DNA of 64,000 nt, from NCBI RefSeq assembly GCF_031458235.1, contig NZ_JAVDYB010000001.1, forward strand, positions 496,001 through 560,000. The letters are read 5' to 3'. Below the pieces are notes generated by a model. That model worked only from the letters and a program-made list of their open reading frames with translations. It searched no databases and was not told the DNA's origin. Position 1 is the first letter of the stretch. The number at the start of each line of letters is the position of its first letter. The stretch is from Catenuloplanes atrovinosus (lineage in GTDB: Bacteria > Actinomycetota > Actinomycetes > Mycobacteriales > Micromonosporaceae). Made by a program: the position numbers and the translations under genes. Positions 12,756 through 22,070 of this stretch are shown one piece after another.

Positions 12756-13271
12756 CGAATCGAGTTCACGTACGCGCGTCCCCGCGAGTACTTCCGCGAC
12801 CAGCAGGCGCAGGCGGCCCGCGCCGCCGCGATGCCGAGCCTGCTCGGTGCCGTGGCGCTGATCGCGGTCGGGCCCTCCTGGGCCGCGTTCGCCCTGCTGT
12901 CGCCGGACGTCACGGACGAGCTGGCGCTGGCCGGGCTCGCGCTGATGCTGATCGCGGTGGGGCTCGCCATCCGGGCGCACGACCAGTGGCAGGAGGGCAT
13001 GACCGTGCCCGCGTCCTGGTGCCTGCCGCGCGAGTGGCTGATCACGGAGGAGGCGCTGGAGTCCACCACGCCGATCGGCAGCACCACGTGGAACTGGGCG
13101 GGCATCCGCTACGCGGTGCGCATCCCGAACGCGTACTTCTTCCGCGCGGAGGTCGGCGGACGCTCCTTCGACGTGCCGCGCGAGCCGCTCACCGAGGAGC
13201 AGGAACAGGCGCTGGAGGACTTCATGGTCGAGCGCGGCCTGGTCATCGACGAGCCGGTCCGGGCGCGCTGA
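12753..13271 (+). CDS. YcxB-like membrane protein
   Basis: 172 aa. Two transmembrane helices at about residues 28-48 and 55-72 are followed by a C-terminal soluble domain (LITEEALESTTPIGSTTWNW, then DVPREPLTEEQ) resembling the YcxB-like family, whose function is unknown. The open frame starts at 12687, but GTG 12753 is preferred because it falls 6 nt after TACGAT and removes a non-conserved Ser/Thr-rich head. It is transcribed divergently from the VWA-protein operon. Confidence 0.7.
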   Translation: MRIEFTYARPREYFRDQQAQAARAAAMPSLLGAVALIAVGPSWAAFALLSPDVTDELALAGLALMLIAVGLAIRAHDQWQEGMTVPASWCLPREWLITEEALESTTPIGSTTWNWAGIRYAVRIPNAYFFRAEVGGRSFDVPREPLTEEQEQALEDFMVERGLVIDEPVRAR

Positions 13272-13585
13272 CCGGTGTCATGAACCTGGCGGGTGTCAGG
13301 ATCCTGCTTCACTCAGGCGGCGTGGCCGGACCACCGCTGGTGCTTGTCTCGCCCAGGTCGGGCGGCCCGAGAGTCCATCTCTAGGTGTTCATTAGGTGAC
13401 TGCTACGGCACGATCGATGCTGGTCGTGCTGCGATGCCTGGCCAGCAGACGCAACAATCTTCAAGACGCTGGAGGCTTGAGGGCCCGGAAGAGCTCGCAT
13501 CATCCTGCCGAGAACAACTGTGCACTGATGACTTCCGAATCCGGCTCGCCTACCGTAGGTCTCAGGGCGACGATTGGAGGGACGG
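13272..13585. other. Gene-free stretch before the accessory island
   Basis: 314 bp with no convincing coding sequence. Base composition falls towards the island, and short frames here use mixed codons unlike the neighbours. The end carries GGAGGG at 13576-13581, the ribosome-binding site of the STAND gene. I see no attachment-site repeat. Confidence 0.5.
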
Positions 13586-16500
13586 GTGGGCGGCCAAGAG
13601 GCGATACGCGGGTTCGAGTATCAGTTTCTACGCACTCTCGAATACGCTTTCGAAGCGATGCTGGACACGTCCTCCGCGGTTACCGGCATCTACGTCGAAA
13701 GTCCACCGCCGAGCGGTCCGGATGACGATAGTGAAGCGGTTGACTTCGCCGTCTATCGTAATGCCGAGTGCCTCATCAAGGCGCAGGTGAAGACCACTGG
13801 CGCCGCGCAATTTACAGCGTCGGCCGCAGTAGCGGTTCTGTTGCGACTCATAAGCGGGCCAGCGGACACTTACCTTCTTCTCGTCACTAGGCCTGCTACG
13901 GGCGAGTTCGGGAATTTGTGTGCCGCCCTAGAGGGTTCCGGCGGGTCGGATAAACACTTCAAAGATTCGTTGTTGTCGCTGGTGCGTCGATCGAACTCTG
14001 TGGCCGAGAAGCTTCGCCAGCTCGACGAGGAAGGCTGGCGTAGACTACGGCGATGCCGTATCGCGATCGATAATCGCTCGGTATTCGAGATAAGACGTCA
14101 GATGCGCGAGACTGTCCGGCACTTGCGCCGAAAGTATCGCACCGGCTCGCCTGGCTGGGATGCCGCAGGACTTCTTCTCGGGCATCTCCTTTGGGACGTG
14201 CTGTCTGCTGCGGCCGATCCCGGCGTGCCGCTGATTCCGCTGGATTCAATTCGAAATGCGTTGGCGATGGACGATGCGTCGCTCGCGGCCGCCGTGGCCG
14301 GACGCAAGTGGGCGCTCAACGTGGGGGCCCCACCACGTCTCACCGATGTCGCTCGTCCGGAGCTCATCGACCGAATCGCCGAAACGCTCGTTGTGCCTAA
14401 TCCCACCCCGCAGGTTCCCGTATGCGTTCTTCATGGACTGTCAGGAATTGGCAAAACTAGCCTGGCAGCGGCATGGGCGAATGACCGTAGCGACGATTAC
14501 GCCGTGATTTTCTGGATTGATTCAGCAACTGCAGAATCCATCGACGGTTCATTCCGGAATGTCGACAGATGGATTCAAGCGAACGTGCAGCCACAACCTG
14601 TAGAACAGCGACTGCATGCTCGTATTCAGGCTGGGCTGGCAAGGATTACTGTCCCATGGTTGATCGTATTCGACAATGCGCCCGACTCGCGTCATATCAA
14701 GCGTTGGCTGCCGAGTGCTGGAGTGGGCCACGGAATAGTGACTACGACGGACCCATCCTCATGGAATGGCGCCCACATTTTCAAACTTGAGGTGCCGACG
14801 ATGACTGAGAGTCAAGCCATAACGCTGCTCTTGCGGCGGATGAGGATGGGCTTGGAATCAATGCCGCCGAAAGCTCAGGTGATCAAGCTCGCTGACCACT
14901 TGCTACGGTGGCCGCTGGCGCTCGAACTGGCTTCCGCATATCTGGTCGACACCCATGAAGGGCTTGCCGGGATGGCGGATTACGAACGCTTGGTGCGGCG
15001 AGCGCTCGACGATGACGATTCGATACCGCCGGGGTATCCCAGCACCTTGGTTGGCGCCGTGCTGCTCGCCATGCGTCGCATGGAGCGACGCGGTGAGACC
15101 GACGACGCGGCAAGCGTCGCGCGCATGGCTTTACGCTTTGCTGCCTTTATGCAGCCACGACATATACCCTTTCACTTGCTTATGGCAAATGTATTTGTCC
15201 ATCCCGAGGAGGATGTTCGCGAAGTTGCACACTCATTTGCGGCCTACAGTGGTGCCGACCCGCCTGCCGGCGAGATTCTGCGAGAGATGCTCAGAGGTTC
15301 ACTGGTTGCCATCGACGCGCCCATATTCGGTGGTGTGGACGAGCGTGTGACGGTGCAGTCGTTCGACTTCTCGGTCGGCATGAACGAGATCGTGCAAGAG
15401 GTAATCCGCAATGATGTTTCCAGAGAGAACGCGGTCGCATTCGTCGTCACTCAAGCCGGCTACCACTCGCAGCGCTGGCTGCAGCATCTGATCGATGCAG
15501 ATCGACATGACTTGGCCCTGGTTTTCAAAGGCCACTGTGTCTATCTAGCGAGGGCTGCACTTCGGCATGACATCAGCAACTACGCTACTGCGCTGCTATG
15601 GGGGAATGCGGCAACTGCGTTGGGGCTCGCCGAAGAATGGCGTGAGGCGGAAGTTTACCTGCGTGCGGAGCTGGCGTACCTCAGATCCACCAACGACAGG
15701 CTATCGCCGACGATGGCGGTCGGTACATACGCTCAGCTCGCACTGGCGATCATGCGTCAAGCTGCTCGTGCAATCGACATCGTAGATGAAGTGTGCGATC
15801 TACTGGACGAGGTGGTTGCCTGGCACGCGAGGGCGACACCGGCGGATGGCGCCAGCGCGAGGACTCCCACGTTCGGTGCCTTTCAGGTGGCATACAACCT
15901 CGGGGTCGATCTTCCGGATCATCGGCGAGTCAAGGATTTGGCGGGCGTCTTGCTTGCCCTAGTGTCGAGGGACGACTCTGCGGATCCGAAGGCTTCTGTC
16001 GCGATGGATGTTCACAGCCTGGGCGAAAGACTGCGGGCGAATGATAACCTGAATCAATTGATCACTGACATCGAGCTCCGCCTGCAAGATTCTGCGTATA
16101 TGTTGCACTGGACGACTTTGCGGCGATTTAGTGTCGAGGCGCGCATGTACAAGAATCAGTATGGCGCGGCTGCTGCGATAGTGCGTGATATGAGTCGATA
16201 TGCCGCCCTGGAAACGTTCCAATATAGCGATGTAGAGACGCTGCTCTCCAATGTGGCGCATCATTGCTTGAGCTTCGCTGCTGAAGGATCCGCCGATGCG
16301 CTGGAAGTACTCGTTGAGACCTGCAATCTCGCAGAGAGGTATTTGGCTGGAGGTAGGGCCTTGCGGCCGGGCGACCAAGCCAGGCTGGACATCGTTCGAG
16401 CCTACCTGGCTCTATACCAGACCGATTTTCTGGCGATGATAGAACGTCTAGAAGGTGTGAACCGACGAGACGTCGAGGCGATCGAGTCCGGGCGAAAAGT

Positions 16501-16591
16501 CGGCGTGGCTGATGTGCACTGGCTCATGTGTCGATGGGTAGAGACATTGCCGGAACCCGTTGCTCGAGCAGTGGGACGGTCTCGTGACTAA
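13586..16591 (+). CDS. Nuclease-STAND NTPase with C-terminal helical repeats, probable anti-phage defence protein
   Basis: 1001 aa. Residues about 3-160 resemble a Cap4/DUF4297-type PD-(D/E)xK endonuclease: GFEYQF at 9-14, then D53 and Q67-V-K69 as the D...QxK core. Residues about 255-560 are an NB-ARC-like STAND module with Walker A HGLSGIGKTS (~283) and Walker B PWLIVFDNA (~356). The remainder is alpha-helical, probably TPR-like sensor repeats. Many codons end in A or T, unlike neighbours, a sign of transfer. GTG 13586 follows GGAGGG by 4 nt. This layout matches Avs-type defence proteins, in which repeats sense a phage protein and the nuclease cuts DNA after oligomerisation; that role is inferred. 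It overlaps the next gene by 8 nt. Confidence 0.8.
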   Translation: MGGQEAIRGFEYQFLRTLEYAFEAMLDTSSAVTGIYVESPPPSGPDDDSEAVDFAVYRNAECLIKAQVKTTGAAQFTASAAVAVLLRLISGPADTYLLLVTRPATGEFGNLCAALEGSGGSDKHFKDSLLSLVRRSNSVAEKLRQLDEEGWRRLRRCRIAIDNRSVFEIRRQMRETVRHLRRKYRTGSPGWDAAGLLLGHLLWDVLSAAADPGVPLIPLDSIRNALAMDDASLAAAVAGRKWALNVGAPPRLTDVARPELIDRIAETLVVPNPTPQVPVCVLHGLSGIGKTSLAAAWANDRSDDYAVIFWIDSATAESIDGSFRNVDRWIQANVQPQPVEQRLHARIQAGLARITVPWLIVFDNAPDSRHIKRWLPSAGVGHGIVTTTDPSSWNGAHIFKLEVPTMTESQAITLLLRRMRMGLESMPPKAQVIKLADHLLRWPLALELASAYLVDTHEGLAGMADYERLVRRALDDDDSIPPGYPSTLVGAVLLAMRRMERRGETDDAASVARMALRFAAFMQPRHIPFHLLMANVFVHPEEDVREVAHSFAAYSGADPPAGEILREMLRGSLVAIDAPIFGGVDERVTVQSFDFSVGMNEIVQEVIRNDVSRENAVAFVVTQAGYHSQRWLQHLIDADRHDLALVFKGHCVYLARAALRHDISNYATALLWGNAATALGLAEEWREAEVYLRAELAYLRSTNDRLSPTMAVGTYAQLALAIMRQAARAIDIVDEVCDLLDEVVAWHARATPADGASARTPTFGAFQVAYNLGVDLPDHRRVKDLAGVLLALVSRDDSADPKASVAMDVHSLGERLRANDNLNQLITDIELRLQDSAYMLHWTTLRRFSVEARMYKNQYGAAAAIVRDMSRYAALETFQYSDVETLLSNVAHHCLSFAAEGSADALEVLVETCNLAERYLAGGRALRPGDQARLDIVRAYLALYQTDFLAMIERLEGVNRRDVEAIESGRKVGVADVHWLMCRWVETLPEPVARAVGRSRD

Positions 16592-17279
16592 GCGGCGGAA
16601 GGCTCCGATCCGCCGGCCGATTACCCGAAACGCTGCTGTGGTTCGGACTCTCACATATCCGACCCTGCCGAAATCGGCGCTTACCGGATGGTTGTCACCC
16701 GAGATGGCCGCCGACGTCCGGCCGCTGTTTGTTACTGTGCTCGCGCATCGACGAGTGGTGAGCGGAAGGCGATATCATTCACCTCTGGTCACCTGCTATG
16801 AGGTGCTACGTGCGTTTTCCCTACTCGGATACCGAGCCGGTCTCCTCGAGGTTGATGTCACCGTTGTTGACCTGGACCGCGGTGGAAAGCGAATCGCATC
16901 GGTGGGTGGCCACGTCGTTGTCGATGCGACGTCATTCAACCGGATCGTCGACCCGGCCCTCTTTCTTCGACGCGAGATCAGGCGTGCGGTCGGCCCGGCG
17001 ACGCCCACGACCCCTGTTGTGTTCCCGAGGACGGAAGCCCTGAGGAGGCCTGGCAATGCGGTCGCGCGACCGCCTCACGCGATGCTGTACGACTTCGCGC
17101 CGGGCTCATTGAGCGCGGATATGATCGAGCGCGGTGACGCTCTTCTGGAGGCGGAGCGCAACGCACTTCTCACTGCTTCCCAGGCCCTCTCCATCATCTT
17201 GGCGCTGTGGAATCTCGACTCTAGTCGAATTGGGCTCAATCCTTTGCTGCAAGGATATGCAGACCGTGGGCCCGAATAG
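16584..17279 (+). CDS. Transglutaminase-like protein coupled to the STAND gene
   Basis: 231 aa from GTG 16584, which overlaps the STAND stop by 8 nt, so the two proteins are co-translated. Residues 68-124 fit a transglutaminase-like (papain-fold) triad: Cys71 in LVTCYEVLRAF, then the GYRAGLLEVDV strand, His110 in GGHVVVD and Asp123 in RIVDPAL, with the normal spacing of His to Asp. A basic N-terminus (KRRKAPIRR) could bind nucleic acid or phosphate. Codon use is AT-richer, like its partner. It could be a protease or transferase effector, an activator of the STAND protein, or a regulator; sequence does not decide. I know no described system with exactly this pair. Confidence 0.65.
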   Translation: MTKRRKAPIRRPITRNAAVVRTLTYPTLPKSALTGWLSPEMAADVRPLFVTVLAHRRVVSGRRYHSPLVTCYEVLRAFSLLGYRAGLLEVDVTVVDLDRGGKRIASVGGHVVVDATSFNRIVDPALFLRREIRRAVGPATPTTPVVFPRTEALRRPGNAVARPPHAMLYDFAPGSLSADMIERGDALLEAERNALLTASQALSIILALWNLDSSRIGLNPLLQGYADRGPE

Positions 17280-17433
17280 AATTTTCCCCTATCAGTCTAT
17301 CTATCTATTTAGACCTATCCGCGCGCTCGAAGGGCCGCTTGAGTAATCCGGAGGACGCGCCCCCTCCCTTGTGGCGTCCGCGTGTCGGCCCGAGAGTCGA
17401 CTCGCTGCAGTAATCAATTAATGTCAGGCTTCG

Positions 17434-17506
17434 TGGAGTCGGCGGGGCTCGAACCCGCCACCTCTGCCGTGCGAAGACAGCGCTCTTCCCGATGAGCTAC
17501 GACCCC
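17434..17506 (-). tRNA. tRNA-Ala (anticodon CGC)
   Basis: 73 nt without CCA. The acceptor GGGGTCG pairs with CGACTCC including a G3-U70 wobble, the alanine identity element. The anticodon stem is CTGTC/GGCAG with loop TTCGCAC, giving anticodon CGC. The T arm GCGGG-TTCGAGC-CCCGC is perfect and the discriminator base is A. Last of three tandem minus-strand tRNAs. Confidence 0.88.
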
Positions 17507-17509
17507 TCG

Positions 17510-17584
17510 TACCCGGAGTGCGATTTGAACGCACACTGTCGCCGCGCTGAACGGCGTGCCTCCTGCCAGTTGGGCTACCCGGGC
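17510..17584 (-). tRNA. tRNA with Leu anticodon CAG but class I variable loop
   Basis: 75 nt. The acceptor GCCCGGG/TCCGGGT has wobbles at both ends, the anticodon stem is CGCCG/CGGCG with loop TTCAGCG (anticodon CAG, unusual C at 37), and the T arm GTGCG-TTCAAAT-CGCAC is perfect. The variable region is only 5 nt, whereas bacterial tRNA-Leu carries a long extra arm. The D arm has a 3-bp stem and an enlarged loop. It may be a divergent element-borne tRNA. Confidence 0.65.
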
Positions 17585-17598
17585 TTGAAATGATTGCG

Positions 17599-17672
17599 TG
17601 CCTCCGGCGCGACTCGAACGCGCAACCACGGCGTCCTCAACGCCGTTCCTCTGCCAATTGGGATACGAAGGC
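17599..17672 (-). tRNA. tRNA with Leu anticodon GAG but class I variable loop
   Basis: 74 nt. The acceptor GCCTTCG/CGGAGGC pairs fully with one wobble; the anticodon stem is CGGCG/CGCCG with loop TTGAGGA (anticodon GAG); the T arm is GCGCG-TTCGAGT-CGCGC; the discriminator is A. The variable loop is about 4-5 nt, again lacking the long arm of normal tRNA-Leu. First of the three tRNAs, 29 nt after a terminator. Confidence 0.68.
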
Positions 17673-17931: not shown

Positions 17932-17983
17932 CCATTTATTCGTGGCATTCTCCGGGTGGCGCGGCGGCCGTATCGTGGCCCGC

Positions 17984-19738
17984 GTGACCGCAGCCCGGCT
18001 CGGAATCGACTTCGGCACCTCCAGCACCGTCGCGCTCATCTCGATCGACGGCCGTGCTCCGGTGCCGCTCCTCTTCGACGGCTCGCCGCTGCTGCCGTCC
18101 GCGGTCTGGGCCGATCCGCACGGCCGGCTGGTCGTCGGCCGCGACGCGCTGCAGGCCGCGCAGGCCGATCCGGCCGCGTTCGAGCCGTCGCCGAAGCGGC
18201 ACATCGACGACGACACGCTGTTCCTCGGCGTCGCGCAGCCGTCCATCGTGGATGTCATCACGGCCGTGTTCGCACGCGTGGCGGCGGAGGCGCACCAGGT
18301 CGCGGGCGCGCCGGTAGCCAGTGCGGCGATCACGTACCCGGCCGCCTGGGCCGCGCCGCGCCGGGCCCGGCTGGAGGCGGCCGCGCGCCGCGTCTTCCCG
18401 TACGTGACGCTGGTCAGCGAGCCGATCGCGGCCGCCAGCTACGTGGTGCGCCGCGCCGCCGCGAAGATCCCGCCGGGCGGCACCGTGCTGGTCTACGACT
18501 TCGGCGCCGGCACGTTCGACGCGTCCCTGGTCCGGGCGGACGCGCACGGGCTGACCGTCGCCGCGACCGAGGGCCTGGACGACACCGGCGGGCTGGACGT
18601 GGACGCGGCGATCGTGGCGCACCTGGAGTCGGTGTACGGGCCGGGGGACCCGGCGGCCTGGGCGCGGCTGTCCATGCCGGCGACGCGCGCGGACCGGCGG
18701 GCCCGGCGCGCGCTGTGGGACGCCGCGCGGGACGCCAAGGAGGTGCTGAGCCGCGCGCCGTCCACCGTGATCGCGCTGCCGGGCGACCGCGAGGCGCCGC
18801 TGGGCCGGGAGCAACTGGACGAGCTGGCCCGGCCGGTGCTGGCCCGGACGGTGAGCACCGCGGCGCGGGTGACCGCGGCCGTGGGACGGCCCGGCGGTGT
18901 GTTCCTGGTCGGCGGCGCCAGCCGGATGCCGCTGGCCGCGTCGCTGCTGCACCGGGCGCTGGGCGTGGCGCCGTCGCTGCTGGATCAGCCGGAGCTGGTG
19001 GTGGCCGAGGGCGCGCTCTACGCCACCGAGCCGCCCCCGGCACCGGTGCCGGCGCCGACCGTGGTGTTCCCGGCGGCTCGCACCGCCTCGGCACCGGCGA
19101 GCGGCCGGGGCCGGCGGATGCCGCTGATCGTCGCGAGCGTCGCCGTGGTGCTGGCGATCGCGGCCGCGGCCGCCAGCCCGATGCTGCTGCGCCCGGACAC
19201 GCCGGTCGCCGATCCGACGGGCACGCCCACCGGGCGGCCCGCCACCGAGGGCGCGGAGACCGCCGCGCCGGGCGGCGCGCGCCCGACGGGGCGACCGGCC
19301 GATCCCTCGACCGGCGGGTCGTCCTGCCTGGTCGGCACCTGGACGAAGATCGAGCACCGGGAGGAGACCCTCTTCGGCGAGGACGAGGACGAGGTGGAGG
19401 CGATCGGGAAGGGCGGCGGCACCCTCGTGCTCCGGCCGGACGGCACCTATACACACAGCTTCCAGGGCAGCAAGCCGCTGGTCGTCGAGTACGGCGGTGA
19501 CACCTGGGAGTACGTGTACGGCGGCGAGGTCACCGGGCGTTACGAGGCGCTGGACACCGGCGTCATGGCGATGACCGACGAGAAGGCGACGGGTGAGGTG
19601 ATCACCCGGCGTGACGGCGCCACGGTGGAGACCGAGCCGATGCCGACCAGTGAGCGCGAGTACGACTACTACTGCGACGGGCCGGACGAACTGCAGCTCT
19701 ACGGAGGCGAGATCACGTACCACCTCCGCCGCGCGTGA
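17984..19738 (+). CDS. Hsp70-like protein with membrane segment and external C-terminal domain
   Basis: 584 aa. Residues about 1-350 are an Hsp70/actin-fold ATPase: LGIDFGTSSTVA (phosphate 1), VYDFGAGTFDASL (phosphate 2) and FLVGGASRMPL (adenosine). The usual DnaK substrate-binding domain is absent. Instead a linker leads to a transmembrane helix (about 380-400), a Pro/Thr-rich spacer and an external beta-rich tail (CLVGTWTKIEHREE... to the end) resembling a lipocalin-like fold. GTG 17984 follows TATCGT by 7 nt, consistent with a leaderless mRNA. It is divergent from the tRNA leader and convergent with the next large regulator. A sensor or signalling role is more likely than folding. Confidence 0.78.
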   Translation: MTAARLGIDFGTSSTVALISIDGRAPVPLLFDGSPLLPSAVWADPHGRLVVGRDALQAAQADPAAFEPSPKRHIDDDTLFLGVAQPSIVDVITAVFARVAAEAHQVAGAPVASAAITYPAAWAAPRRARLEAAARRVFPYVTLVSEPIAAASYVVRRAAAKIPPGGTVLVYDFGAGTFDASLVRADAHGLTVAATEGLDDTGGLDVDAAIVAHLESVYGPGDPAAWARLSMPATRADRRARRALWDAARDAKEVLSRAPSTVIALPGDREAPLGREQLDELARPVLARTVSTAARVTAAVGRPGGVFLVGGASRMPLAASLLHRALGVAPSLLDQPELVVAEGALYATEPPPAPVPAPTVVFPAARTASAPASGRGRRMPLIVASVAVVLAIAAAAASPMLLRPDTPVADPTGTPTGRPATEGAETAAPGGARPTGRPADPSTGGSSCLVGTWTKIEHREETLFGEDEDEVEAIGKGGGTLVLRPDGTYTHSFQGSKPLVVEYGGDTWEYVYGGEVTGRYEALDTGVMAMTDEKATGEVITRRDGATVETEPMPTSEREYDYYCDGPDELQLYGGEITYHLRRA

Positions 19739-19752
19739 ACCCGTACCCGGGC

Positions 19753-21900
19753 TCAGTCCTCGCCCAGCCACAGCCGGTCGCAGAGCGCCGACAGCCCGAG
19801 GGTGAGGTGGCGGCGGTAGGTGCTGAACGGCAGGCCCAACCGCCGTGCCGCCGCCTCCTGCGTCGGCGCCCCGCTCAGGAACGTGGTGGTCAGCACGCGG
19901 TGCTGCTTCACGGTCCGGGTCTGCCGGCCCAGCGCCTCCACCGCGGACGCCAGCGTGCGGCGCAGCGCCTCGACCGGGTCGGCCGCGTCCCGGACCAGGC
20001 CGGTGCGCAGCAGCGGGCTCTCCGTCAGCCGCTCCGGGCGGCGCCAGGCGCGCAGCGCGGACCGTACCTCCGCGTCGAACTCGGCCCTGGTGAGCACGGT
20101 CAGCCCGGGGTCCGGGCGGGGCGGCAGTTCCGCCACCGGGCGCACCGAGTTGCCGGCCAGCCACTGCGCCGGCGGTGCCGCGCGCCAGTCGTGCGCGAAC
20201 AGGTGCCGCTCCCGGCCGCCGGTGGTCGCGGTCAGCCCGGTGCCCGGCATGTCGAAGTAGCGCAGCGCGCCGATCCACCGCGACGGCGCGTCCGTGGCCA
20301 GGAACGTCCATCCAGGACGGTCCCGGCGCACGATCCGGCCGAGCACCCGGTAGACCGCGAGGTCCTGCACGGCCGCGGCCCGGCGGCGCTCCATCGGGCC
20401 GGCCAGGCGCTCGCCGGCCGGGCGTTCCGCGGCCGGCGCGCCCGCGGACGGACGGGCCACGAAGCGCAGCACGTCCAGCTCCTCGCCGGCGGCCAGCGGC
20501 GCGGCCGTGTGCGTGTACGCCCAGGCGGCGGCCAGCACCGGGTCCCGCTCGCACTCGGCCGCGTCCTCCGCGCCGAGCCGCAGCAGCGCGGAGAAGCCGA
20601 TCAGCTCGCCACGCGCGGCCCGCGGCTCCAGCGGGTGGAGCGGGCCGACGCGTGCGGTGTCCAGCAGCGGGATCGGCTCCTCGCGGCGGTACGCCCGGAA
20701 CGCGGACGGCTGCCGCGCGAACCAGAACTCGACCAGCTCGGGCTCGTCGCTGAGCGCCAGCAGCGCGGGCAGTTCGGACGGGTCGACCGCGTCCTCGTAC
20801 ACGCCGCTGGTGGTCGGCATCGCGGCCGCGTCGTCCGGCGCGCCGCTCGGCATGCCGAGGATCGCGTCGTAGAACGCGGTGGCGCCGAACCGGCGGTGCA
20901 GGTAGCCGAGCATCACCATGGCCGGCATGATCGCGTCGCCGGCCGCGACCCGGGCGCGCTCGTACAGGTAGTCGCGGATGCGGTCGTGCAGTGCGCGGTG
21001 GCCGTCCGGGTCGCGGTGGGCGAAGTGCGCGTCCACCGAGTGCCGGATCGCGCCGTTCGGCACCAGGCCGAACGGGGAGGCGTGCATGAACGACTGGGTA
21101 CGCAGCCACTCGAACATGGCGGAGGCCTCGTCGCCGACCACGGCGCGCAGCAGGTCCTCGGTGATCACCACCGAGTGCGCGGCGGCCCGCAGCGCGAGCC
21201 GGTGCGTGGCGGACGGCAGCGGGCCGGCCAGCGACTCGACCACGCGGTCCAGCAGTTCCGGCGTCGGTGACCAGCCCGCGCCGTCGCGGATCGTGGCCTG
21301 CGCGGTGCGGGCCGCGAGCGCGAGCGCGGACGGGTTGCCGCCGGAGAACGCGACCATCGCCTGGCGCAGGTGCGGCGCGACGCCGAAGCGGTGCAGCAGC
21401 GAGCCGGAGTCCGGCCGGCTCAGCGGGCCGAGCGGCAGCGGGCGGATCGCCTGGGACCAGCCGGGATCGGCGCTCCACCGGGTGATCGGCGACCGGCGCG
21501 CGGCCAGCACCACGCGCGCGTCCATCGGCAGCCGCGGCAGCAGCCGGTCGCACAGCCACGCCTCCAGCGCGGGGATGCGGTCCGCGTCGTCGATCAGCAC
21601 CACGGGCGCGCCGGGCCCGGCCGCGTCCGCGCGCTCCTCGTCGCCGTCCCGGCCGTCCACCCGCAGCACGGTGCGGCCGGCCGTGCGTGCCTCGTCGGCG
21701 AACCGGGCCAGCAGCGCGGTCTTGCCGATGCCGGCCGGGCCCTCGACCACCAGCAGCGCGTGCGGACTGTCCGGCCGCAACAGCTCGTGGAACGCCGCCA
21801 TCTCCGGCTGCCGGCCCAGGAACGTCTGCCGTTGGGACGCGCGCAGGCGGTCCGCGACGGATCGGATCGGCAGGGAGCTCAGCGATCTCACGGCACTCAC
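19753..21900 (-). CDS. Large STAND-type ATPase regulator with C-terminal HTH
   Basis: 715 aa. AAA/STAND module near the N-terminus: FLGRQPEMAAFHELL, Walker A VEGPAGIGKTALL (~55) and Walker B VVLIDDADR (~103). A long helical middle follows. The C-terminus (TQEAAARRLGLPFSTYRRHL) is a sigma-70 region 4/LuxR-like helix-turn-helix preceded by EALRRTLASAVEAL. It resembles MalT/LAL-type transcriptional regulators (usually 850-950 aa, so this is shorter). Start GTG 21900 lies 7 nt after TACGGT, itself 17 nt after TTGAAC, so a leaderless mRNA is likely. The target genes are unknown; the divergent phosphatase is one candidate. Confidence 0.78.
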   Translation of the reverse strand: MSAVRSLSSLPIRSVADRLRASQRQTFLGRQPEMAAFHELLRPDSPHALLVVEGPAGIGKTALLARFADEARTAGRTVLRVDGRDGDEERADAAGPGAPVVLIDDADRIPALEAWLCDRLLPRLPMDARVVLAARRSPITRWSADPGWSQAIRPLPLGPLSRPDSGSLLHRFGVAPHLRQAMVAFSGGNPSALALAARTAQATIRDGAGWSPTPELLDRVVESLAGPLPSATHRLALRAAAHSVVITEDLLRAVVGDEASAMFEWLRTQSFMHASPFGLVPNGAIRHSVDAHFAHRDPDGHRALHDRIRDYLYERARVAAGDAIMPAMVMLGYLHRRFGATAFYDAILGMPSGAPDDAAAMPTTSGVYEDAVDPSELPALLALSDEPELVEFWFARQPSAFRAYRREEPIPLLDTARVGPLHPLEPRAARGELIGFSALLRLGAEDAAECERDPVLAAAWAYTHTAAPLAAGEELDVLRFVARPSAGAPAAERPAGERLAGPMERRRAAAVQDLAVYRVLGRIVRRDRPGWTFLATDAPSRWIGALRYFDMPGTGLTATTGGRERHLFAHDWRAAPPAQWLAGNSVRPVAELPPRPDPGLTVLTRAEFDAEVRSALRAWRRPERLTESPLLRTGLVRDAADPVEALRRTLASAVEALGRQTRTVKQHRVLTTTFLSGAPTQEAAARRLGLPFSTYRRHLTLGLSALCDRLWLGED

Positions 21901-21907
21901 GCGACAC

Positions 21908-21936
21908 ACCGTAGAGTGACGGGCCACGCGGTTCAA
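21908..21936 (-). promoter_or_regulatory. Leaderless promoter of the STAND regulator
   Basis: TTGAAC (21936-21931), 17 nt, TACGGT (21913-21908) on the minus strand, then 7 nt to GTG 21900. It fixes the start codon of the regulator. Confidence 0.65.
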
Positions 21937-22070
21937 TCTCCCGAAAGTCATACGGGGCGTGACAGAAACGCATACTTCGGCTACCCGTAGTCATAATCCC
22001 CGGTAGTGGCCGTCACGATATGTGCACCCGCCGGTCCGCGCGTCGGTCCAGAAGGGACGAAGACAACATC

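Follow-up and report, generated by a model that had tools for sequence, protein, structure and literature searches.

A nuclease–STAND protein and its transglutaminase-like partner in Catenuloplanes atrovinosus: a candidate two-gene receptor module

Two overlapping genes in a 64,000-nucleotide stretch of the Catenuloplanes atrovinosus genome (contig NZ_JAVDYB010000001.1, positions 496,001 to 560,000; this whole stretch is hereafter the window) pose a simple question: what would a small transglutaminase-like (TG-like) protein be doing beside a large protein that appears to join a nuclease domain to a STAND NTPase? We found the same two genes paired in another genus and fused into a single gene elsewhere. 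With moderate confidence, we read the pair as a compact, horizontally moved two-gene receptor module, similar to Avs (AVAST) and to nucleotide-binding leucine-rich repeat (NLR) receptors, whose TG-like partner acts at the sensing end and not as a killing effector.

The two genes (Table 1) and their 8-nt overlap, which runs from the GTG at 16584 to the end of the stop codon at 16591, had been proposed from the letters alone in an earlier reading of the window (the original prediction). Both the open reading frames (ORFs) and the starts of a homologous locus uphold this: in Dactylosporangium vinaceum, which belongs to the same family as the window genome, the GTG start of the large gene, the GTG start of the small gene and the 8-nt overlap are all repeated (L031/L036). 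The large proteins of the two loci are 51% identical and the small ones 36%. By segment, identity falls from the linker (66.3%) through the NTPase (59.3%) and the nuclease (53.1%) to the arm (37.3%) and the partner (35.5%), the last two being the most diverged parts. This locus was the single match of one peptide-pattern scan of genome contigs, made with two patterns, one of which required a Met start, and is therefore a lower bound on the number of paired loci. Residues are numbered here from the GTG; the numbers of ORF P0001 run 4 higher, so that its residues 261–620 correspond to 257–616. The GC content is 58% in the large gene and 62% in the small gene, against 72.5% in the window, in keeping with the prediction that the pair would be AT-richer.

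A natural fusion gives independent proof of the linkage. A profile built from the two paired small proteins alone was run against 394 genomes of one family (f4), which is probably Streptomycetaceae; genome searches of this kind scored just a few candidates per genome, so that absences are soft. In one genome the profile recovered, at E = 2e-6, a protein from a 1187-codon frame in which an N-terminal nuclease motif, a STAND NTPase and a long further region are followed by a TG-like domain. Within one genus of that family, 2 of the 70 genomes carried the fused gene, the copies being 86% identical over the TG-like domain. Against a profile of 10 non-fused members, the two fused domains scored E = 9.3e-15 and 3.6e-13, and in a FastTree tree the paired and fused copies grouped together with a support of 0.953 (some deeper splits were weak, down to 0.421). 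The conserved pair and the fusion bear out the earlier claim that the genes belong together.

The fused copies carry Ala, Gln and Asp at the positions aligned to the Cys, His and Asp of the non-fused members. When we compared the two fused genes by the Nei–Gojobori method, the ratio of nonsynonymous to synonymous rates (dN/dS) was 0.075 for the nuclease, 0.185 for the STAND module, 0.321 for the TG-like domain and 0.432 for the arm. The fused TG-like domain, which lacks the Cys and His, is thus under purifying selection, with a rate closer to the arm's than to the nuclease's; the value of 0.321 indicates that a catalytically dead domain is still maintained.

In the window the pair stands on an insertion. 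Homology to four congeneric genomes ends at 13268–13273, where the upstream gene stops, and restarts at 17432 (17508 in one of them), at a tRNA cluster. In two of these genomes the flanks lie 274 bp (G004) and 195 bp (G001) apart, with tRNA-Tyr and tRNA-Cys genes between them; in the other two (G002, G003) the two flanking sides are rearranged. No homologue of the small protein was found in the four genomes at E ≤ 0.001. The cluster itself is resident: the two Leu genes occur in 4/4 of the congeneric genomes, Ala in 3/4, Tyr in 4/4 and Cys in 3/4, and the window locus has no Tyr or Cys tRNA gene at the cluster. The pair is a horizontally acquired two-gene cassette that borders an ancestral tRNA cluster; the insert holds just the two genes, which move as a unit. 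The prediction of a "mobile defence island" beside odd tRNAs was upheld as to horizontal acquisition and not supported as to the island, since the insert has two genes, the tRNAs are ancestral and a scan of six window neighbours recognised no known defence gene.

The N-terminal domain of the large protein has the core D53...Q67-V-K69, within DFAVYRNAECLIKAQVK. It matched the PADLOC model LmuA, with E = 0.003 for the whole large protein and 1.8e-4 for the nuclease domain alone. Among seven nuclease-domain sequences of the family, the window's included, six matched LmuA at E ≤ 5 (best 2.1e-5), two matched HamA (best 1.3e-4) and two DUF4297 (best 0.01); two matched Pfam Cap4_nuclease (best 1.2e-4), one of the seven (L059) having been chosen for matching that model. 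A few of the relatives match HamA about as well as LmuA. On its own, the window nuclease domain gave no match in Pfam; PADLOC returned nothing at E ≤ 5 for P0003 and P0012, two full-length homologues. We assign the domain with moderate certainty to the Cap4-type nucleases, with a predicted nuclease activity.

For the NTPase the strongest family match was NCBIfam FxSxx_TPR (NF040586), which covered residues 257–616 with E = 4.1e-41 and 141.3 bits, below its curated cut-off of 300 and over the NTPase and its tail only. Pfam AAA_16 and NB-ARC also matched, both below cut-off. Walker A reads GLSGIGKT (284–291), Walker B reads LIVFDN (359–364), and a GxP-like RWPLA stands at 441. The nuclease–STAND plan with a D...QxK core, as originally predicted, thus agrees with both the domain matches and the motif positions. 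The C-terminal arm had no convincing Pfam match, and sequence searches of the PDB returned nothing significant. At the presumed MHD-like His position (window 15380–15409, residues 599–608) we read MNEIVQE in the window, MNEVVQD in Dactylosporangium and IHRIVQE in the fused copies.

The triad Cys71-His110-Asp123 claimed for the small protein proved to be a family trait. The TG-like alignment comprised 15 sequences (2 paired, 2 fused and 11 free-standing); Cys is kept in 12/12 non-fused members that cover the site (L091 does not), and His and Asp in 13/13. One more free-standing relative (the twelfth), L032, is interrupted by an in-frame stop and was excluded from the count. After the Cys comes a segment that ends in LG, and the Asp lies 13 residues past the His in a [VI]D[AP]T-like context, an arrangement that we take to be the pattern of transglutaminase-like enzymes (cf. 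the resident PF01841 proteins). The small protein itself had no match in Pfam (PF01841 included), NCBIfam or PADLOC, and no significant one in the PDB. When compared by hhalign with five PF01841 proteins from its own genome it scored 24.95, whereas 100 column shuffles peaked at 18.44 and the reversed profile gave 11.74; the probability was just 5%, with only the Cys segment aligned, not His or Asp. At the level of motifs, a transglutaminase-like fold is probable.

Table 1. Features of the nuclease–STAND/TG-like locus, in window positions
Feature	Position	Strand	Description	Basis
Large gene	13586..16591	+	1001 aa, candidate GTG start; predicted Cap4-type nuclease, STAND/NB-ARC-like NTPase, presumed helical arm	ORF, domain matches
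Small gene	16584..17279	+	231 aa, candidate GTG start; probable transglutaminase-like (TG-like) partner, Cys71-His110-Asp123, basic N-terminal tail	
N-terminal Cap4/DUF4297-like nuclease domain (predicted)	13586..14035	+	~aa 1-150; GFEYQ motif, D53, Q67, K69	PADLOC LmuA and Pfam Cap4_nuclease matches across the family
STAND NTPase, winged-helix-like tail	14351..15445	+	~aa 256-620; Walker A 284-291, Walker B 359-364	NCBIfam FxSxx_TPR, Pfam below cut-off, motifs
C-terminal arm, presumed helical, presumed sensor	15446..16588	+	~aa 621-1001; fast evolving	
Acquired segment	13274..17431	.	replaces tRNA-Tyr and tRNA-Cys genes; holds just the two genes	congeneric homology breaks
Resident tRNA cluster Ala-CGC, Leu-CAG, Leu-GAG	17433..17672	-	borders the insertion, outside the system	

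How might such a pair work? The C-terminal arm would recognise an invader or a damage signal, upon which the NTPase would oligomerise and the N-terminal Cap4-type nuclease would degrade DNA, halting infection. The small protein, as a dedicated partner from the overlapping gene, may dock on the C-terminal arm, a site proposed because the fused partner sits at that end in two other genomes; once docked, it could share in sensing or keep the switch off, as a co-sensor, a brake or a guarded protein. The receptor reading draws on the tripartite plan of STAND immune proteins (PMC12931631) and on the Cap4-like nuclease of HerA-DUF4297, which is activated through assembly (PMC12198126); statements on these and the other cited papers refer to excerpts of them. 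We infer the partner's docking and sensing role, as well as phage defence by the pair. A role at the sensing end is favoured because it would account for a triad that is kept when the partner is separate and lost when it is fused behind the arm, and for a partner that evolves fast together with the arm; catalysis would then be secondary, or needed only in trans.

Several observations weigh against this reading. The PADLOC models for Avs and STAND systems did not match: the large protein matched only LmuA at E ≤ 10, and five homologues matched none of the models at E ≤ 5. The fold of the partner is putative, AlphaFold2 having returned a mean predicted local distance difference test (pLDDT) of 37.7 from a two-sequence input; the helix 71–80 starting at Cys71 and the strands 85–96 and 102–114, the latter bearing His110, would fit a TG-like core, and little weight attaches to them at this confidence. 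The two fused genes, being closely related, represent a single evolutionary event. The triad is kept in both paired loci though the surrounding core is down to 29% identity, which suggests that catalysis matters in the two-gene form. Finally, when the fetched flanks of the 12 free-standing TG-like genes were searched with a profile (E ≤ 0.01), no large-protein relative turned up in any of them, meaning that the TG-like domain has another life outside this switch.

Retention of the triad is what makes a catalytic role for the small protein a serious rival in the two-gene form, if a doubtful one overall: as a cysteine protease or cross-linker it would license the switch, by cutting or modifying the large protein or by being itself released on activation. 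Both paired loci have the complete triad although the small proteins share 36% identity, and protease-gated nucleases are proven in defence: in AVAST and Hachiman, trypsin-like proteases activate co-encoded pro-nucleases, and nuclease–protease pairs with a trypsin- or caspase-like protease occur in AVAST, Hachiman, Lamassu and canu (PMC12799240). Like these pairs, the window locus encodes a nuclease together with a candidate protease, tied to an immune switch. Moreover, TG-like thiol peptidases have been reported from conflict systems of other kinds, namely MoxR-vWA/VMAP, TERNS3, EAD10 and HEPN systems, many of them from multicellular prokaryotes and some STAND-linked (PMC7159879, PMC8195603, PMC3710099). 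However, both fused copies lack the Cys and His while their nuclease and NTPase are still constrained, and the arrangement in PMC12799240 is a different one: there the trypsin-associated nuclease is a separate gene of the metallo-β-lactamase (MBL) fold and the trypsin-like protease is fused to a defence enzyme, whereas here a predicted Cap4-type nuclease and the switch are joined in one protein, with the TG-like domain either separate or fused without its catalytic residues. In the conflict systems, too, the TG-like domain has another setting, as one among several modules that are interchangeable or fused, unlike the dedicated Cap4–STAND partner proposed here. Licensing thus explains well a triad kept when separate and poorly a triad lost when fused. 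The "protease effector" of the original prediction becomes less likely as well, since the fused TG-like domain no longer has its Cys and His, whereas the nuclease and NTPase are still the most constrained parts; the brake and the maturation enzyme that it also named are still plausible.

The other alternatives are less probable. By analogy with plant NLRs, which can carry integrated decoys, the large protein might be a guard receptor: some invader factor would originally have targeted the free-standing TG-like enzymes, the STAND-nuclease would guard the operon copy, and the fused copy would be a dead bait. The state of the triad (intact in the free-standing and paired forms, lost in the fused one) prompts this proposal, which we consider unlikely, the target relation and the order of events being conjecture. 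Quite unlikely is a regulatory or developmental STAND protein with no part in defence, akin to the tetratricopeptide repeat (TPR) proteins of actinobacterial FxSxx-COOH systems. FxSxx_TPR is indeed the strongest family match, and multicellular actinobacteria have many STAND regulators; yet the score is under half of the cut-off and covers the NTPase and tail only, a nuclease precedes them, and the distribution is patchy and horizontally acquired. Very unlikely, in our view, is a toxin–antitoxin-like or double-effector unit in which the small protein neutralises the nuclease or adds a second toxic activity. The overlap of the genes and the plasmid location of 3 of the 12 free-standing relatives speak for it; against it, a fusion at the presumed sensor end with loss of catalysis fits a second effector poorly, and among nine free-standing loci compared no neighbour was common to most. 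The neighbours that did recur were three unassigned genes (L034, L052), a weak match (L044, L052) and a recombinase-like gene (L041 and the Dactylosporangium locus).

The sensing-end reading places the pair near, and apart from, known systems. Some Avs types bear Cap4 nucleases, and the large protein resembles Avs in its N-terminal nuclease, central STAND NTPase and C-terminal arm; it differs in that its NTPase is nearest to actinobacterial FxSxx_TPR/NB-ARC-like proteins and in its extra TG-like partner. The nuclease domain is also similar to the LmuA/DUF4297/Cap4 nucleases and hence recalls Lamassu, whose LmuB is an SMC-like ATPase. However, no LmuB-type SMC partner is present in the two-gene insert, where the nuclease is instead fused to a STAND, NB-ARC-like ATPase and accompanied by a TG-like protein. 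A Cap4–STAND plus TG-like pair or fusion was not found in the excerpts of the open-access literature covered, most subscription papers and bioRxiv preprints lying outside its scope; because this coverage is partial, the novelty of the combination is provisional. The pair, whose linkage the fusion proves independently, would add a partner class to bacterial NLR-like nuclease receptors, and a split form with the triad next to a fused form without it lets catalysis be told from binding. Should the partner prove to be an enzyme that is guarded or serves as a decoy, a bacterial receptor would be seen to use guard logic.

Each half also has relatives of its own: the nuclease-switch core is found without the partner, as is the partner family without this switch. 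On plasmid pJCM18538 of Mycolicibacterium arabiense, a nuclease–STAND relative (27% over residues 162–537 of P0001, with the N-terminus aligning too) lies ~1.8 kb from genes annotated as Pycsar, a placement in favour of the receptor reading; no TG-like ORF adjoins it. In a protein of Kineococcus radiotolerans pKRAD01 (L040) and in another from L059, a similar nuclease is combined with other NTPase modules. The Kineococcus locus was rejected as another pair, as its second protein had no match to the TG-like profile hidden Markov model (HMM) at E ≤ 1; it forms a two-gene unit (L040 8001–11635) in which the nuclease and P-loop NTPase protein overlaps a 371-residue protein of unassigned kind, and the large protein of L059 is similar. 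A plasmid search with the large protein returned 49 records, all with less than 80% of the query covered; among the 20 matches listed, it was chiefly the NTPase that matched. The free-standing TG-like relatives, 12 including the broken L032, are all actinobacterial. In viral contigs we found no relative of the large protein, of two free-standing TG-like proteins or of the fused protein, and phages gave no match to the fused protein.

The surroundings of the other copies vary. The Dactylosporangium pair adjoins a thymidine kinase gene, unlike the window locus, and another neighbour there reads as an endonuclease/exonuclease/phosphatase-like protein. In L037 (7288–11344) and L043, the fused gene adjoins apparent catechol-siderophore or nonribosomal peptide synthetase (NRPS) genes, with a short-chain dehydrogenase/reductase (SDR) and an AMP-ligase among them. 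In L051 (7352–13667), one free-standing TG-like gene lies ~0.6 kb downstream of an apparent caspase–STAND–WD40-like protein, with an apparent transposase remnant between. Apart from the thymidine kinase, these neighbours were assigned by ORF reading, without a family search.

In the window, we considered the tRNAs as part of the system and rejected them: they are present at conserved congeneric loci without the pair, and none was found in the Dactylosporangium or fused loci. The tRNAs with Leu anticodons (CAG, GAG) are just 75–76 nt long and, in the window, have a short variable arm; they stand in a cluster with Ala, Tyr and Cys genes, an odd array that is kept in the four congeneric genomes (L080–L083). 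Both paired loci have an Hsp70-like gene nearby (window 17942–19735; L031 1–1191, 5.7 kb from the Dactylosporangium pair). It was set aside as a linked component because of the many related copies in the genus, which weaken such a link without excluding it. Among the six window neighbours scanned, the sole suggestive one is a second STAND-like NTPase gene at 19756–21951 (Pfam nSTAND_NTPase5 and AAA_16, below cut-off), which is conserved in the genus. Near a contig end in another genome of the window's family, a short remnant of the nuclease region (L089 607–1050; 37% over 78 residues) is probably a decayed or partial copy.

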